From assembly GCA_021776595.1 (NCBI GenBank), contig JAJFFP010000018.1, positions 1 to 64,000 of the forward strand: 64,000 nt of DNA. The letters run 5' to 3'. The translations under genes and the position numbers were made by a program. This DNA comes from Robiginitomaculum sp. Its GTDB lineage: Bacteria; Pseudomonadota; Alphaproteobacteria; Caulobacterales; Maricaulaceae. This document shows positions 404 to 49,086 of the stretch, piece after piece; positions within the stretch are counted from its first letter, which is position 1, and every line of letters starts with the position of its first letter. The notes under the pieces are model-generated. The model made no database searches. It was not told where the DNA came from and saw only the letters and a list, made by a program, of their open reading frames with translations.

Positions 404-453
404 ATGGAGGGCAACTTGCCGGTAATATACCCTGCAAGTGCGCCTGTAGGACA
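404..453 (+). repeat. Two-module dispersed repeat, copy A, 50-bp module
   Basis: This stretch matches the reverse complement of 18237-18286 at about 43 of 50 positions by hand count. It lies upstream of the longer module at 594-742. The same order is kept in the second copy, so both modules appear to belong to one compound element. The core is CCGGTAATATACCCTGCAAG. Confidence 0.75.
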
Positions 454-476
454 AGTTTTGTCTGTCCCCCATCCTC

Positions 477-565
477 GTCATCCTCCGGCTTGACCGGAGG
501 ACCCATACTGACTTTTAGTTAAATTGCACTGCCTTATAGACCCTCCGGTCAAGCCGTAGGGTGAC
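477..565. repeat. Inverted-arm repeat with CCTCCGG hairpins
   Basis: The arms at 477-502 and 540-565 are near-perfect inverted copies. The left arm also forms a local hairpin, CCTCCGG/CCGGAGG. The GTCATCCTCCGGCTTGACCG type is a familiar short repeat of alphaproteobacterial intergenic DNA. It sits between the two modules of repeat copy A and is absent from copy B, so it may be a later insertion. Confidence 0.6.
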
Positions 566-593
566 GAAGGGCGGTGTTTGTGATTGTGAATAT

Positions 594-742
594 GTTATCC
601 CGTGCATAGACCTCAATGGTCACACCAAGGGGTAGGGAGTGCCCCTTAATGACCCTCACACTGACCCTCAAATACCCCTTAATTGACCCTTATTACCCTT
701 TTCGGACCCCTTAAATGAGGCTTGTTACCCCTTAATGACCCT
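594..742 (+). repeat. Two-module dispersed repeat, copy A, GACCCT module
   Basis: This 149-bp module pairs with 17902-18050, which is inverted and also 149 bp. The first 18 bases (GTTATCCCGTGCATAGAC) are identical, the next 30 differ, and the last 101 match at about 90 positions without gaps. The conserved part is built from GACCCT units with TTAA spacers, such as CCCCTTAATGACCCT. A short hairpin, AAGGGG/CCCCTT, can form across the variable part of this copy. No coding potential is seen. Confidence 0.85.
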
Positions 743-815
743 GTGTTTTTTAGGGGTTACCCGTAATTATCCCCGCCTACGCAAAGCAGGCTATAATCGT
801 GCCATTTGAAACCAG

Positions 816-3071
816 CTATTCCTTCAAATGACGGTTAAAGAAGGAAAAGAACGTATGCAGCAGGTGTTTGCGTTGAGCTTTTCCACGAACGCCATGACGT
901 TGCCCCGGATAGGTCATCATTTCAAAGGGCAGGTCTTTGGCCTGCAAAGCCGCATAAACCTGTGTAGAGTTTGAAAAGATAACATTATCATCAGCCATGC
1001 CGTGGATCATCAAAAGCGGCGATCGCAGGTCATCCAGATACGTCATGACCGAACCATTTTTGTATCCCAGTGCATTGTTTTGCGGGGTGCCCATAAACCG
1101 CTCGGTATAATGGGTATCATAAAGTGACCAGTCTGATACCGGGGCGCCGGCAATCGAGGCGGCAAAAGGTTCGGGGGCGCGCAAAGTAAGCATTAACGTC
1201 ATATAACCGCCATAACTCCAGCCATGCAGGCCGACCCGCTTGGGATCAACATAGGGCAGGGCGCGGACAAATTTCAGGCCTTGAAGCTGGTCTTCGACCT
1301 CGACTCCGGCCATGGCGTGATAAATCGCATCTTCGAATGCTTTGCCACGATTGTTGGAGCCGCGATTGTCCAGGCGAAAATAAACATACCCTGCCTGGGG
1401 ATAGAGCTGATCGCCCGCGCCGCGCCAGGCCCGGCGCACCAGATGGGTGCCGGGTCCGCCATAAACATTGATAATCGCCGGATATTGTTTGGACGGATCA
1501 AAATTAGCCGGTTTATAAAGCTGATAATATAAATCCGTGCCGTCACTGGCTTTGATGGTGCCAAATTCCGGGGTGATGTGGTCGCTAAGGTATGGAAAAT
1601 ACGGATGTCCTTCAGCCAGCTTGTTTTCTTCTATCCAGGAAAGCCGTTTTGCCTTGAGGTTATAAAGCCCGGTTTGCGGCGGTGTGTCGGGATCAGAATA
1701 GCGGCCAATATAGCGCCGGGCGTTCTTGGCCATGGTTATACCCCAGGTACCACCATCGGGGGTGATTTGGCGAATTTTGGCGTTTTTCTTGTTGATATAG
1801 CTGGTAACAAAAAGATGCGATTCCAGCGGGGTTTTGCGCCAACCGGTAAAATAAACCAGGCCACGTTTTTCATCGATACCGGCAATGGCGCTTACTGGCC
1901 AGTTGCCTTTGGTGATCTGGCGGATCAATTGCCCATTATTGGCATAAAGATAAATATGGCGAAAACCACTTCGCTCAGACGTCCATAAAAAGGCTTTACG
2001 TCTTTTCAGGCTGTGAAAGTCCCTGGAAAGGTTGATCCAGGTTTTGGCAGTTTCGCTCAGCACGGTGCTGGTATTGCCGCTATCGGGGTCAGCGCGCAGC
2101 AGGTCGAGTTTGTTCTGTGCACGATTTTGCCGCTGCACCAGCACAGTGTCACTTTGCGCATCCCAATGAACGCGGGCGAGGTAAATATCAGGATCGTCAC
2201 CAAGATCGATGGTGATATTCCCGCCTTCTTTCAAATCCTTCACCAGAAGTTTGAAGGTAACATTGTTCATGCCGGCGCGTGGGTAGCGCTGGGGCACGAT
2301 GCGTGCGGATTTAGCCCCGATTTCCATGCGGTTGATAATTTCAACCGGGCTTTCATCCACTCGCTCAAAGGCGATATAGCGCTCGTCCGGCGACCACCAG
2401 TATCCGGTGCTGCGGCTCATTTCCTCCTGGGCGACAAACTCGGCCATGCCATTGGAGATAACACCGCCACCATCAGTGGTTATGGCGCGCTCCTGACCTC
2501 TAGTCAGGTCATAAACATATAGATTGCGATCGCGGATATAGGAAACCCAATTGCCTTTGGGGGAAAAGCGGGCATCGGTTTCAAAAGCGGGGGTTTTGGT
2601 AATGCGGCGTACCTGACCGCCGGGAATGCTGACCGTATATACATCCCCGTCAAGCGGCACGAGGATGGCTTTACCCTGCTCATCCCAGCTATAATTGACA
2701 ATGCCGTGCGCGCGGATGCGCTGGCGCTCGCGGCGACCTTTTTCTTCCTCGGATAGTTCCACCTCATCTGGTGACAACACTTTGGAATCAACCAGCAATT
2801 TTGCAACGCCGCCATTGGCAGGCATGAACCATAAGTCCTGTTGCAGATAGTCACTTTGCTTGCCGCGCAAAAAGGTCAACATTTTGCCATCAGGTGAAAA
2901 TTTCAGGCCTCTGGGGGTCGGCCCGGATAAAGCCGGGTCGGAATATACCCGTTCAATCGTTAGCTTTTGGTGCCGGGTTTGCGCTGTGGCATTAATGGAA
3001 ATGCCGGTTAAGGCGAGCATTAATGCCCAGAGCGACAGGAGGGGGGGTATTCTGGCAATGGAAAAATTCAT
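816..3071 (-). CDS. Dipeptidyl-peptidase IV family serine peptidase (S9B)
   Basis: The 751-residue protein has an N-terminal signal peptide (hydrophobic core at about residues 9-30, ending near ATAQT). This is followed by a DPP-IV-type beta-propeller and a C-terminal alpha/beta-hydrolase domain. The nucleophile is Ser619 in GWSYGGYM. The Asp is at about 694 in HGMADDN and the His at about 726 in GQRHG. Such enzymes cleave X-Pro dipeptides from peptide N termini, probably in the periplasm here. The start has a GGAA ribosome site about 9 bases upstream. It is transcribed away from the tRNA gene at 3254. A second, different S9 peptidase lies at the window's right edge. Confidence 0.92.
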   Translation of the reverse strand: MNFSIARIPPLLSLWALMLALTGISINATAQTRHQKLTIERVYSDPALSGPTPRGLKFSPDGKMLTFLRGKQSDYLQQDLWFMPANGGVAKLLVDSKVLSPDEVELSEEEKGRRERQRIRAHGIVNYSWDEQGKAILVPLDGDVYTVSIPGGQVRRITKTPAFETDARFSPKGNWVSYIRDRNLYVYDLTRGQERAITTDGGGVISNGMAEFVAQEEMSRSTGYWWSPDERYIAFERVDESPVEIINRMEIGAKSARIVPQRYPRAGMNNVTFKLLVKDLKEGGNITIDLGDDPDIYLARVHWDAQSDTVLVQRQNRAQNKLDLLRADPDSGNTSTVLSETAKTWINLSRDFHSLKRRKAFLWTSERSGFRHIYLYANNGQLIRQITKGNWPVSAIAGIDEKRGLVYFTGWRKTPLESHLFVTSYINKKNAKIRQITPDGGTWGITMAKNARRYIGRYSDPDTPPQTGLYNLKAKRLSWIEENKLAEGHPYFPYLSDHITPEFGTIKASDGTDLYYQLYKPANFDPSKQYPAIINVYGGPGTHLVRRAWRGAGDQLYPQAGYVYFRLDNRGSNNRGKAFEDAIYHAMAGVEVEDQLQGLKFVRALPYVDPKRVGLHGWSYGGYMTLMLTLRAPEPFAASIAGAPVSDWSLYDTHYTERFMGTPQNNALGYKNGSVMTYLDDLRSPLLMIHGMADDNVIFSNSTQVYAALQAKDLPFEMMTYPGQRHGVRGKAQRKHLLHTFFSFFNRHLKE

Positions 3072-3253: not shown

Positions 3254-3330
3254 GGGCCTGTAGCTCAGTTGGTTAGAGCCGGCCGCTCATAACGGTCTGG
3301 TCGTAGGTTCGAGTCCTACCGGGCCCACCA
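3254..3330 (+). tRNA. tRNA with CAT anticodon, probably Ile2
   Basis: The 77-nt cloverleaf has acceptor arms GGGCCTG/CGGGCCC, D-stem GCTC/GAGC, anticodon loop CTCATAA, T-loop GGTTCGAGTCC and an encoded CCA end. The anticodon is CAT, so it is tRNA-Ile2 (lysidine-modified) or elongator Met. The body looks more like Ile2 than the alphaproteobacterial elongator tRNA-Met I recall. It is not initiator-like, since the first base pair is normal. A 51-bp repeat starts within its CCA end. Confidence 0.9.
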
Positions 3331-3376
3331 TTTTCCTTGCGCTATCGCGATGCTGACGCTCGCTATATGAGCGCGG
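3326..3376 (+). repeat. tRNA 3'-end-associated repeat, copy 1
   Basis: The unit begins with the CACCA of the tRNA and runs through TTGCGCTATCGCGATGCTGA to a GCGCGG end. It differs from the reverse complement of 48964-49014 at only about 3 positions over some 50 bases. It contains the palindrome ATCGCGAT and GCGCT/AGCGC ends that could pair in the tRNA trailer. Confidence 0.85.
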
Positions 3377-15186: not shown

Positions 15187-15885
15187 ATGCGTAAAGCACT
15201 CATTACTGCAGCAGCGCTTGGCGCTGCACTCATTCTTCCCGCTACGGCATTTGCCGGGCACAACAGCAATAGCGGCCAGTATCGTTGCAAGAGCGACAAG
15301 GACGACCAGGTTGTTGGCGCTCTGATCGGCGGGGTTCTGGGTGGCCTCCTAGGTAACGAAGTGGCTGGCCGGGGCAATCGTACCGAAGGCGCTGTAGCCG
15401 GTGCCTTACTCGGCGGGGTTGCCGGTGCCGCCATTGCCGATGGTCCGGATTGCAAAAACAAACGCTATGGCAAACGCAAGCGCCATAATCGTTACAGAAA
15501 AGCCGGTTACAATAACGGCTACGTCAATAACAATGGCTACCGTAACAATAACGGCTACCGTAATAATAATGGCTACGGCAATAATACCAGAACCGGTTAT
15601 GGCGATCCCTATGCCAATGAGCGTCGCCAGTATCGCCGTCAAGAGCGTAACGAGCGCCGCCGCTATCGCCGCCATGAGCAACGTGAACGCTATGGCTTTG
15701 GCAATGAGCGTCTGGAAGGCGGTATTGAACGCGCAGCAGCTTATAATACCGGTTATGGCTCCCAGCCCTATCAGGCAAACAAATGCCGTTTTCGCAAAGT
15801 CACCACGCGATTTAATAATGGCACGTATCGTACCCGCAAGGTTAAGGAATGTCGCGGTGTGAACGGGACCTGGAGCCGCCACTAA
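15187..15885 (+). CDS. Secreted glycine-zipper protein with NNGY repeats
   Basis: The 232-residue protein has a clear signal peptide (residues 1-22, ending AFAG). Next comes a glycine-zipper pair, GALIGGVLGGLLGNEVAG and GALLGGVAGAAIADG, as in YMGG/Rick_17kDa-type envelope proteins. A basic stretch follows, then tandem NNNGYR units. Residues about 140-170 are very Arg-rich, and the C terminus has CRFRKVTTRF and KECRGVNGTW with paired cysteines. An AAGGAGAG ribosome site is strong. Role is unknown; an outer-membrane or cell-wall-linked structural role is inference. The gene is a single transcription unit ended by a strong terminator. Confidence 0.75.
   Translation: MRKALITAAALGAALILPATAFAGHNSNSGQYRCKSDKDDQVVGALIGGVLGGLLGNEVAGRGNRTEGAVAGALLGGVAGAAIADGPDCKNKRYGKRKRHNRYRKAGYNNGYVNNNGYRNNNGYRNNNGYGNNTRTGYGDPYANERRQYRRQERNERRRYRRHEQRERYGFGNERLEGGIERAAAYNTGYGSQPYQANKCRFRKVTTRFNNGTYRTRKVKECRGVNGTWSRH
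15505..15586 (+). repeat. In-gene 18-bp tandem repeat encoding GY(R/V/G)NNN
   Basis: Units such as GGCTACCGTAACAATAAC repeat about four times with silent changes between them, so the peptide repeat is kept while codons vary. This favours selection on the protein over recent slippage. Confidence 0.8.
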
Positions 15886-15994: not shown

Positions 15995-17809
15995 TCAAAT
16001 CGGCGCGCAAACCCGGCGCAGCCAATCGCTCTCCTCTTCATTCAGGGCCATCTCATGTATGGCAAATACGCGTTCATGATAGGTGTTCAGCCAGCCCTTT
16101 TCCTTTTCCGATAAAAGGCTGGCCTGGATCAGGCGATGATCTATGGGGGCCAGGGTCAGGGTTTCAAAACCCAGCATCGGGGTTTCGCCCCCCTCAATGG
16201 CTTCGCAGGTGCTAACCACCTGTAGATTTTCGATGCGAATGCCATAGGCCCCGGTTTTATAATATCCCGGCTCGTTTGAAACGATCATGCCTGGCATGAG
16301 CGGGGTTTCATTCCATGCCCGTGCAATCCGTTGCGGACCTTCATGCACCCCAAGATAAGCACCAACCCCGTGCCCGGTGCCATGGGCATAATCTAGCCCC
16401 GCTTCCCAAAGTGCCGCCCGCGCCAAAATATCAAGATGAGTGCCTGTGGTGCCTTGCGGGAAGCGCACACAGGCAAGCGCAATATGACCTTTAAGCACAC
16501 GGGTGAAACGATCACGCATCTCTTCACTGGGCTCACCAATGGCAATTGTGCGGGTAACATCGGTGGTGCCATCGCGATATTGGCCACCAGAATCAATCAG
16601 ATAGAGCGTATTTCGGTGCAAGGGTGCATTGGTGGCGGTGGTCACGCGATAATGCACAATGGCACCATCGGCACCGGCACCGGAAATGGATTCAAAAGAC
16701 AAATCCTCTAAACACCCGGTTTCCTGACGATAGCTTTCCAGCTTTTGTGCGGCGCTGATCTCGTTCATTTCTCCGCTTTGGCCTTCTTCGCCGGCCATAA
16801 AACACAAAAACCGGGTCAGGGCTGCCCCATCACGAATATGGGCACGGCGCGCCCCTTCAACTTCCACTTCATTCTTGCAGGCCCGTGGCAAGGCGCAGGG
16901 GTCTTGGGCGCGGGTAATGCTGCCGCCTGCCTGGCGCACCCTATCAAACACCCAGGCCGAGGCGGTGGCGGGGTCCAGGCTGACGTCTTTATTATTCAGC
17001 GTTTTTATAGCTTGAGGGAATTCTTCTTCTGTCTTTATGGCTACGCTATTGCCAAGATGCGCACGCACATCGTCAGTAACTTTTTTGGGGTTGATAAATA
17101 GCTCTGCGGTGCCGTTTTCATGAACCAGCGCTGTGCTGAGCGGCAAGGGGGAGCAGGCCACATCACCGCCGCGGATATTAAACAGCCAGGCGATTGAGGC
17201 AGGCGAAGTAATGATGGTGGCATTAGCCCCGCTATCTTTGATTGCCTTGGCGGTTTGTGCAATTTTTTCGCCATGGGGCTGGCCAGAATATTCCAGTCCC
17301 TGCACACGCAATGGTGCTTCGGGCATGGCTGGCCGATCCGCCCAAACCGCATCAAGCGGATTGCTCTCTTGCGCCATAAGAATGGCACCGGCGGCCTTGG
17401 CTGCCTGTTCAATGCCGGCCAGGGCATCGGGGCTGTGCAGGCGTGGATCATAGCCAATTTTATCGCCGCTTTTGGTGTTCGCTTTGATCCATCCTGCAAT
17501 ACCGGTTGCTACAAGGTCTGCAAAATCAAACAGATCGCTATCCACCTGATCGCGAACCTGAAGGGTATAACGCCCATCAGTCAGGATGGCGGCGCAGCCC
17601 TGCATCACTATGGCGGCTCCAGCCGAACCGGTAAATCCGCTTACCCAGGCCAGCCGGTCGGTTGCCGCTGGCAGATATTCATTTTGATATTCATCTTCAT
17701 GAGGAATGATGACGCCATCCAGTTGGCGCTGCGATAATTCGCGGCGCAATAGAGGCAAGTGGGTACGGCCAGCCTGTGGTCCGCCCTTAACGTTAAAATC
17801 TTGAATCAT
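15995..17809 (-). CDS. Xaa-Pro aminopeptidase (M24B)
   Basis: The 604-residue protein has two creatinase-like N-terminal domains and a C-terminal pita-bread metallopeptidase domain. Metal ligands are visible in DSGGQYRDGTTDVTR (two Asp), HGTGHGVG (His), SNEPGYY (Glu) and RIENL (Glu). The length and three-domain plan match the long eukaryote-like aminopeptidase P group rather than the 440-residue E. coli PepP. It removes an N-terminal residue before proline. There is no signal peptide, so it is cytoplasmic, and it could finish peptides released by the S9 enzymes encoded at both ends of the window. Confidence 0.92.
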   Translation of the reverse strand: MIQDFNVKGGPQAGRTHLPLLRRELSQRQLDGVIIPHEDEYQNEYLPAATDRLAWVSGFTGSAGAAIVMQGCAAILTDGRYTLQVRDQVDSDLFDFADLVATGIAGWIKANTKSGDKIGYDPRLHSPDALAGIEQAAKAAGAILMAQESNPLDAVWADRPAMPEAPLRVQGLEYSGQPHGEKIAQTAKAIKDSGANATIITSPASIAWLFNIRGGDVACSPLPLSTALVHENGTAELFINPKKVTDDVRAHLGNSVAIKTEEEFPQAIKTLNNKDVSLDPATASAWVFDRVRQAGGSITRAQDPCALPRACKNEVEVEGARRAHIRDGAALTRFLCFMAGEEGQSGEMNEISAAQKLESYRQETGCLEDLSFESISGAGADGAIVHYRVTTATNAPLHRNTLYLIDSGGQYRDGTTDVTRTIAIGEPSEEMRDRFTRVLKGHIALACVRFPQGTTGTHLDILARAALWEAGLDYAHGTGHGVGAYLGVHEGPQRIARAWNETPLMPGMIVSNEPGYYKTGAYGIRIENLQVVSTCEAIEGGETPMLGFETLTLAPIDHRLIQASLLSEKEKGWLNTYHERVFAIHEMALNEEESDWLRRVCAPI

Positions 17810-17901
17810 GGGTGCAGTCTAGTATTATTTTACCAAACGGGGAACCATATTATCATAGTAAATGCAATGGATAAAAAATCAGTTTTATCCCCGCTTCCCT
17901 G

Positions 17902-18050
17902 AGGGTCAATAAGGGTCAATAAGCCTGATTTAAGGGTCCATAAAAGGGTAATAAGGGTCAATTAAGGGGGTTTTGAGGGTCAGTGTGAGGGTCATTAAGG
18001 GGTAGTTGTGACCCTCAAAATGTCCCTTGTCAGTCTATGCACGGGATAAC
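17902..18050 (-). repeat. Two-module dispersed repeat, copy B, GACCCT module
   Basis: This is the inverted partner of 594-742 with the same 149-bp length. It carries six GACCCT units on the minus strand. Its variable 30-base segment creates a perfect 9-bp inverted repeat, TGAGGGTCA/TGACCCTCA, which copy A lacks. Just outside the module a CGGGGATAAAA end mirrors the GTTATCCCG at the other end, giving weak terminal inverted repeats. Confidence 0.85.
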
Positions 18051-18100
18051 TCCCTCTCTCCCCCAAAAGGAAAGCGGGAGAGGGTCGGGGTGAGGGGTTT
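18051..18100. repeat. Interspersed repeat, CTCACCC-ACCCTCTCCC type
   Basis: The reverse complement reads CCCCTCACCCCGACCCTCTC, related to the copy at 58286-58320. The arms (TCCCTCTCTCCC and GGGAGAGGG) form a hairpin. This repeat type is widespread in proteobacteria. Confidence 0.65.
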
Positions 18101-18236
18101 GTGGGTTGGCAAACGCAACTGCATAGTATGCCTTATAGCGCTCCATCCCCTCATCTTACTCTTCTCACTATGGGAGAAGAAAGCGGCTGGTTTCCTGGCC
18201 GTGTCCTGTTTTCAAACGTGGGGGATTGCCAAACCT

Positions 18237-18286
18237 TGTCCAACGCTGGCGCTTGCAGGGTATATTACCGGCAATTTGCCCTCCAT
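18237..18286 (-). repeat. Two-module dispersed repeat, copy B, 50-bp module
   Basis: This is the inverted partner of 404-453, with about 43 of 50 matching positions. Distance to its GACCCT module is 186 bases against 140 in copy A, and the DNA between the modules is unrelated. Confidence 0.75.
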
Positions 18287-18516
18287 GTTTTGAGGGCGCT
18301 GCGCGCCACCTCAACATGAGGTTGCTATTATACTAAACACCTCATCCTGAGCGCGCTCGAAGGATGGAGAAACGCAAATCAGGATGGATCATAGACAGGC
18401 AAGAAATTAACTTAAATGGCAATGCCCAAATATGACCAATGGCGTTCTCAAGGCGTATTCCCTTTTCTGGCTTGACCATGCTATCCATTTGTGAAGATGG
18501 GGATATAATACCGCTT

Positions 18517-48907: not shown

Positions 48908-48909
48908 TA

Positions 48910-48960
48910 CCGCGCTCAAATAGCGAGCGTCAGCATCGTGGTAGCGCAAAGATAATGGTG
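48910..48960 (-). repeat. tRNA 3'-end-associated repeat, copy 2
   Basis: This is a duplicate of copy 3 offset by 54 bases and starting 3 bases after the aidB stop. It ends in TGGTG, so it even includes the CACCA pentamer of the neighbouring tRNA, although no tRNA body follows here. It differs from copy 3 at a few positions. Confidence 0.85.
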
Positions 48961-48963
48961 GAA

Positions 48964-49014
48964 CCGCGCTCAAATAGCGAGCGTCAGCATCGCGATAGCG
49001 CAAAGATAATGGTG
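48964..49014 (-). repeat. tRNA 3'-end-associated repeat, copy 3
   Basis: The unit overlaps the CACCA end of tRNA-Arg by five bases and continues away from the tRNA. It is nearly identical to copy 1 at tRNA(CAT). The tandem array of copies 2 and 3 fills the whole gap between aidB and the tRNA. Confidence 0.88.
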
Positions 49015-49086
49015 ACCCCGGAAGGACTCGAACCTTCAACCTGCCGCTTAGAAGGCGGCTGCTCTATCCAGTTGAGCTACGGGACC
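49010..49086 (-). tRNA. tRNA-Arg (TCT)
   Basis: The 77-nt cloverleaf has anticodon loop CTTCTAA, stem GCCGC/GCGGC, acceptor GGTCCCG/CGGGGTC with wobble pairs, T-arm GGTTCGAGTCC and an encoded CCA. It decodes AGA codons. Confidence 0.96.

Follow-up and report, generated by a model that had tools for sequence, protein, structure and literature searches.

Two copies of the element in the window

The window analysed here comprises 64,000 nucleotides, positions 1 to 64,000 of contig JAJFFP010000018.1 from Robiginitomaculum sp. (assembly GCA_021776595.1, hereafter G000), and contains two copies of a short non-coding element in inverted orientation, the only ones reported in it among the profile matches listed (Table 1). 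Between the right end of copy 1 and the stop codon of a convergent gene (816-3071) there are 7 bp, and the right end of copy 2 is located upstream of an M24 peptidase gene (15995-17809, minus strand). Both inverted pairs of the initial annotation were recovered by a repeat finder, namely 642-742 against 17902-18002 (101 nt, 89%) and 397-471 against 18219-18293 (75 nt, 81%), and its hand-counted match values for a 50-bp module and for 101 bases of a longer one agree with these pairs. The limits it had drawn, 404-742 and 17902-18286, were too narrow, as copy 1 extends on to 808 and copy 2 to about 17844. The middles of the copies indeed differ, with a palindrome of the CCGGCTTGACCGG type in copy 1 and one of the CTCTCCC type in copy 2.

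Table 1 Features of the two element copies in the window
Feature	Positions	Strand	Basis and remarks
Copy 1, whole element	412-808	+	Ends by motif scan; homology limits by eye
Copy 1 left end, facing outward, TTGTCC-N19-TATATT-N4-GCAAGTTG	412-454	-	End scan (locus L079), left score 9.0, spacing 19
Copy 1 middle cassette, palindrome with 33-nt arms, 85% complementary	475-567		Repeat finder; other copies carry alternative cassettes
Copy 1 array (module B), with GACCCT/ACCCCTTAATG boxes phased at about 10.75 bp	591-742	+
Copy 1 right end, TTATCC (767-772)-N19-TATAAT (792-797)-N3-GCCATTTG (801-808)	767-808	+	End scan
Copy 2, whole element, divergent genes on either side	17844-18278	-
Copy 2 right end, degenerate, TTATCC-N19-TATGGT, lacking GCAATTTG	17844-17874	-	End scan (locus L072)
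Copy 2 phased array (module B)	17902-18051	-	Match to profile R1, E 1.7e-34
Copy 2 middle, CTCTCCC-type palindromic cassette	18052-18235		By eye (L072)
Copy 2 left end, facing outward, TTGTCC-N19-TATATT-N4-GCAATTTG	18236-18278	+	End scan (L072), left score 9.8
Hairpin repeat abutting the copy 2 left end, CTCATGTTGAGG...CCTCGAAACATGG type	18279-18325		By eye; beside many copies

Comparing the copies side by side shows that the unit consists of two ends of about 43 bp that face outward, the array and, in many copies, a captured hairpin cassette. The same motif, TTATCC-N19-TATAAT-N3/4-GCAATTTG, is found at both ends facing outward; the 50-bp module first described is the left end read backwards, and the left end of copy 1 corresponds to the inner half of that module. 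The minimal form, seen at locus L145 with the motif at both ends and no cassette between them, measures about 270 bp, copy 1 has 397 bp, and the element as a whole ranges from about 270 to 450 bp and is without coding capacity. As had been claimed, no gene was called inside it at any of 37 G000 loci, two called frames overlapping an edge.

The middle cassette folds strongly (z -5.5 for region 472-590). One cassette type has 21 matches in G000, 13 of which lie by position in elements and eight elsewhere, so that the cassettes are repeats in their own right which were caught in the element; the motif rules used for typing left 36 of 74 loci unclassified. Eighteen of 41 G000 loci and 11 of 33 loci in a relative of another species (G010) have a hairpin motif of the type abutting copy 2 on their left. 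At locus L048, at the start of contig C62, the left end is followed by a palindrome arm that stops short where other sequence begins, perhaps an inserted transposon.

Copy number and range

The G000 assembly (2.63 Mb, 95 contigs) was searched with R1, a sequence-only model of the 150-bp GACCCT module (module B) built from 35 training sequences of G000 and its relatives, which gave 42 matches, the copies found including the training set. A DNA search of the same genome with window positions 404-742 as the query returned 58 matching pieces, and in the copies aligned by eye the order of the 50-bp module (module A), a variable middle and module B is kept. The family is therefore real and much larger than the two copies first reported, and the picture of a single old duplication with two products was not borne out. 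Five pairs of G000 contig ends overlap by 113 bases and split some copies in two, and thus the number of distinct copies differs slightly from the number of matches.

With strict filters, under which weak matches can be lost, R1 detected module B in 13 of the 18 genomes belonging to the genus (Robiginitomaculum or close to it), with up to 39 matches in a relative and 16 in another (G017); the same search gave no match in the other five genus members or in any of 23 genomes of other genera. A plain DNA search found matches in eight of 61 genomes, the one outside the genus being of 21 bp only and receiving no confirmation from the family profiles. Judging by lysyl-tRNA synthetase, the closest named genomes are the Robiginitomaculum sp. 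MAGs OFTM139 (87%) and OFTM333 (86%). The GACCCT elements form a family of short intergenic DNA specific to the genus, of which no account was found in the open-licence literature on Robiginitomaculum, Hyphomonadaceae or Caulobacterales repeats. A phage-type integrase gene with a diverged array copy upstream was also noted (L147:3121-4380).

For locus comparisons, 41 G000 loci were combined with 33 of the 39 copies of G010 into a set of 74, and array counts use 70 of these, with copies at contig ends consisting of module A only being left out.

Helical phasing of the array

The GACCCT units described in the initial annotation are real and exceed chance, each module having 8.9 CCC runs where single-base shuffles give 3.1 (70 copies, two genomes), and the units share the consensus TG(A/C)CCCTTA when anchored on CCT in both genomes. 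Distances between pairs of CCC runs peak at 11, 21-22, 32, 43 and 54 bp with almost none in between (70 copies from G000 and G010), and in each genome a period of 10.75 bp fits best, with R of 0.90 in G000 (37 copies) and 0.86 in G010 (33 copies). Module lengths are mostly 135-142 or 147-152, about one helical turn apart. Being phase-locked at 10.75 bp, the CCC runs place the boxes on one face of the helix, which supports the suggestion of a binding-site array made earlier.

In 300 simulations with independent spacings the phase concentration reached 0.795 at most, a comparison that is not a full test since the copies are of common ancestry and not independent of each other. Descent from one ancestor could account for part of the phasing; G010 arrays are just 62% alike, yet the phase is kept in them.

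Conserved motif at the ends

Ends were scored with a scan covering spacings of 18-20, with 19 favoured by 0.5 point, and 69 of the 74 loci were included for right ends. A score of at least 8 was obtained for 39 of the 69 right ends (37 with spacing 19 and two with 20) and for 20 of 73 left ends, all with spacing 19, the left end being weak in G010. The highest score among 40 shuffled right flanks was 7.3, so the right end of copy 2, which scores 7.2, is not above this null. TTATCC-N19-TATAAT with at most one mismatch has 59 matches in G000 against six for the reversed control, and 37 of these matches coincide by position with ends of copies. Terminal inverted repeats are thus present, though imperfect.

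Shared sites, movement and homogenisation

Comparison of the flanks of the 41 G000 and 33 G010 loci gave 17 copy pairs in which a gene adjoining the element is common to both copies, with side and strand agreeing; in five pairs this applies to both flanks. Each species contributes 16 copies, with L045 and L055 counted as one. In most pairs a single flank is common, which is partly due to G000 contigs ending at that point, and the gene distances are often nearly equal (83/65, 94/94, 55/54 and 146/139). Copy 2 of the window belongs to one such pair (L072/L132). Copy 1 forms an 18th, as the last 43 residues of its right-hand gene are found 87 bp to the right of the G010 locus L142 on the same strand. 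This C-terminal remnant (L142:2679-2806, 43 residues matched) belongs to a gene that is intact beside copy 1, and its sequence suggests that the gene beside L142 decayed while the element stayed.

In further pairs, e.g. L043/L140, L047/L133 and L051/L136, the element is inverted relative to the common neighbour gene. Copy L127 has its left gene in common with L060 and its right gene in common with L077; by this one case of flank exchange, in which the left neighbour of one locus is joined to the right neighbour of another, the breakpoints fall at the element.

The flanks of thirteen other loci were sought in G010, and at three of these loci (L052, L061 and L066) both flanks are in place with no element between them; array and left-end profiles gave no match at these sites at E up to 1. 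For the remaining loci the flanks are apart or one only was found, and a weak array match (E 0.0014) lies beside the L047 ortholog (L249). For L066, the lysS site, seven named relatives were examined, and no array was found at E below 0.05 in any of them. Empty sites in a relative do exist, then, and these absences could represent loss in G010 rather than gain in G000.

Array identity is 0.74 within G000 and 0.62 within G010. Pairs at orthologous sites stand at 0.618 (16 pairs), practically level with the 0.613 of other pairs between the species, and array identity was for this reason rejected as a sign of common descent of the orthologous pairs. Since the G000 copies resemble each other and orthologous pairs are no closer than others, the G000 copies were homogenised, old sites included; this holds for G000 only, as identity within G010 is no higher than between the species, and outside G000 the copies have just the phased consensus in common.

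Among the 20 elements with both ends defined, none has a target-site duplication of 3 bp or more exactly at its boundary. If 3 bp of slack is allowed, three of the 20 share 4 bp, where 1.3 are expected, and 52 of 500 permutations attained as much. Inspection by eye of the G000 end lists revealed no transposase with such ends on either side. Y1-type transposases are the kind that moves REP hairpins; G000 has one match to such a gene above the cut-off and one below, with no link to the element ends shown in that genome. The initial proposal of a non-autonomous element is accordingly borne out in part, namely by the dispersal, the matching ends and the three element-free sites, and not by target-site duplication or an autonomous partner. 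Because neither of the latter was found, the element is not filed as a MITE.

Proposed explanation

The reading we favour, to which we would give an even chance, is that of a MITE-like intergenic element that spread as mobile DNA, was homogenised by recombination and carries a helically phased protein-binding array. A DNA-binding protein arranged head to tail every 11 bp would coat one face of the array and, once bound, would direct an activity at the adjacent right end, which might be either recognition of that end by a trans-acting recombinase during movement of the element or a transcription start at TATAAT. Head-to-tail binding at 11 bp is the geometry of PhoB/OmpR-type regulators. The arrays resemble PhoB/OmpR box arrays in this step, a likeness of spacing only, and differ from them in having more boxes and in their number of loci, about 40, most of which adjoin the 3′ end of a gene; no binding protein or regulator was identified for them. 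After its spread as MITE-like mobile DNA the family would have been homogenised by recombination between copies, and the element would be tolerated or used beside gene 3′ ends. Some element ends may have become promoters, to judge by the boxA-like leaders that follow four copies.

Non-coding repeats of bacteria are usually read as decaying transposon debris or hairpins. In the present family the helical phase, the ends of fixed spacing and the old sites are kept while the rest of the sequence is scrambled, which points to a bound protein, and the family may offer a genus-wide test case of how mobile DNA joins chromosome regulation or structure.

Genomic placement and alternative functions

Placement was counted from the calls of a home-made gene caller. 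Unlikely, though the strongest of the alternatives, is the possibility that the element is a promoter cassette, in which the array would be an upstream activating region and the ends promoters (TTATCC-N19-TATAAT) for neighbour genes or small RNAs. A -10-like hexamer does occur at a fixed spacing in both ends, and of 57 right-hand genes 16 are directed away from the element, some at nearly equal distance in both species. The other 41, however, converge on it, and a right end scoring at least 8 is found at 26 of these 41 against six of the 16 pointing away (p 0.027); with the motif better kept at convergent genes than at those it could drive, it is not simply a gene promoter. The spacing of 19 differs from the N17 read by eye in the promoter before 16S in G014 and G008, and copy 1 showed no sigma-70 consensus, which together make a housekeeping promoter unlikely at a typical end. 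The right-hand genes scanned also have no family in common.

In favour of the same possibility, four right ends run into a boxA-like GGCTCTTTGACA leader, as in true rRNA leaders. These leaders lie beyond the right end at L053, L065 and L067/L234 in G000 and at L105:1726 (minus strand) in the relative G002, and no rRNA was found by Rfam at L053, L065 or L067. An rRNA upstream activating region, considered on account of these leaders, was rejected as no array precedes 16S in G014 or G008; likewise rejected were tRNA promoters, the tRNAs adjoining L057 and L065 being on the opposite strand. At L105 the leader is followed by a long inverted repeat, possibly a small RNA, and faces a convergent gene also found beside L074 (79% identity over 416 residues), which has no match among the genes behind the G000 boxA copies.

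Somewhat less probable still is that the elements are chromosome-organising or gene-boundary sites, arrays bound by a putative nucleoid protein which would insulate convergent genes or structure the chromosome. Convergent gene pairs flank 22 of the 47 copies with both neighbours called, compared with nine of 54 control gaps, taken from elsewhere and measuring 100 bp or more (p 0.0013). The distance from the right end to the convergent stop codon has a median of 13 bp, 20 of 26 cases falling within -5 to 40 bp; right ends scoring at least 8 with a gene within 200 bp were used, and four of 30 convergent cases beyond that distance were left out. At L145 and L117, in both species, the element end and the convergent gene overlap over the gene's final codons including the stop (-12 bp), and thus the element appears to supply the stop codon.

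Further support for boundary sites comes from their conservation between species and from spacing, which was tested in G010, G014 and G012. The 39 copies in G010 are placed more evenly than expected by chance (mean 73 kb, CV 0.60 against 0.96 expected, p 0.0005; p 0.002 for the smaller set of 33 copies), as are the 26 in G014 (p 0.03), whereas for 38 copies in G012 the result was not significant (p 0.085, with one of 39 matches left out for lying at the same place on the opposite strand). The regular spacing may, however, merely reflect recombinational loss between near copies, five genus genomes have no matches, and element-free sites exist. Orientation along the G010 contigs, inspected by eye, is mixed rather than fixed; FtsK/KOPS-like polar signals were rejected for that mixed orientation.

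A bolder and less likely view is that of a former mobile element that has become a chromosome-wide architectural system, with about 40 evenly spaced one-sided filament platforms and a candidate dedicated protein, serving as boundaries of convergent genes or as nucleoid anchors. In this view the arrays would be placed at gene ends and kept at the same sites across species; it is speculative and to be regarded as doubtful.

Rho-dependent termination is improbable. The C-rich, G-poor strand of the array (32% C, 17% G) would then act as a rut site for the upstream gene; it is unstructured with regularly spaced YC steps, and 36 of the 58 left-hand genes counted point into it. The other 22 point away, though, and a GACCCT consensus, a helical phase kept over five turns and paired outward ends, all of which are found here, are not requirements of rut sites.

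A structured non-coding RNA, as initially suggested, or a G-quadruplex element is hardly credible: strong folding is confined to the middle cassette, whereas the covariance check of the array (35 sequences) gave five consensus pairs with no compensatory changes, its folding is near that of shuffles on both strands (z -0.39 and -0.19), Rfam finds tRNAs only in the window and the 16 loci scanned, and the G4 motif, present in two of 70 copies, led to rejection of a G-quadruplex array.

Comparison with known intergenic elements

Among known systems, BrickBuilt of Porphyromonas gingivalis is the nearest in design and Correia of Neisseria the next. In the available part of its description, BrickBuilt is a MITE containing a 23-nt tandem array without spacers, a leader and a tail, with bidirectional promoter activity measured in E. 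coli and short flanking duplications in three of the four copies examined (PMC4596501). As far as that description goes, the GACCCT element is likewise an intergenic MITE-like element with an internal direct-repeat array, and differs in its unit of about 10.75 bp rather than 23 nt, in having no flanking duplication that could be found and in its occurrence across a genus, beside the same genes in two species.

Correia is a short dispersed non-coding element with sigma-70-like promoter sequences, for which inversion has been reported and which lies predominantly upstream of genes, according to the part of a review available (PMC10969869). The GACCCT element is similarly short, dispersed and non-coding, its copies may also be turned round relative to a neighbour gene, and it has outward promoter-like motifs, known here from sequence alone; this likeness is drawn from the description of Correia and not from its end sequences. 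In contrast to Correia so described, the GACCCT copies are mostly located beside 3′ ends and have a phased array, a feature that the available parts of the Correia accounts do not mention.

The RIME/ABC and REP/BIME repeats are palindromic, mosaic intergenic repeats. The middle and left-flank cassettes of the GACCCT element are palindromes of that sort, but its conserved core, unlike REP and RIME, is a non-palindromic array with outward ends, and its palindromes vary or are absent, as at L145.

Other repeats in the window

Two tandem 52-bp copies are located at 48909-49014 beside a tRNA gene (49013-49086), and the same 52-bp sequence is also found inverted at 3320-3376 beside another tRNA gene (3254-3327). 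Judging by their position, these copies probably represent a duplicated tRNA with downstream sequence. In addition, tandem 18-bp repeats of the GTTACAATAACGGCTACC type at 15506-15595 overlap predicted ORFs.
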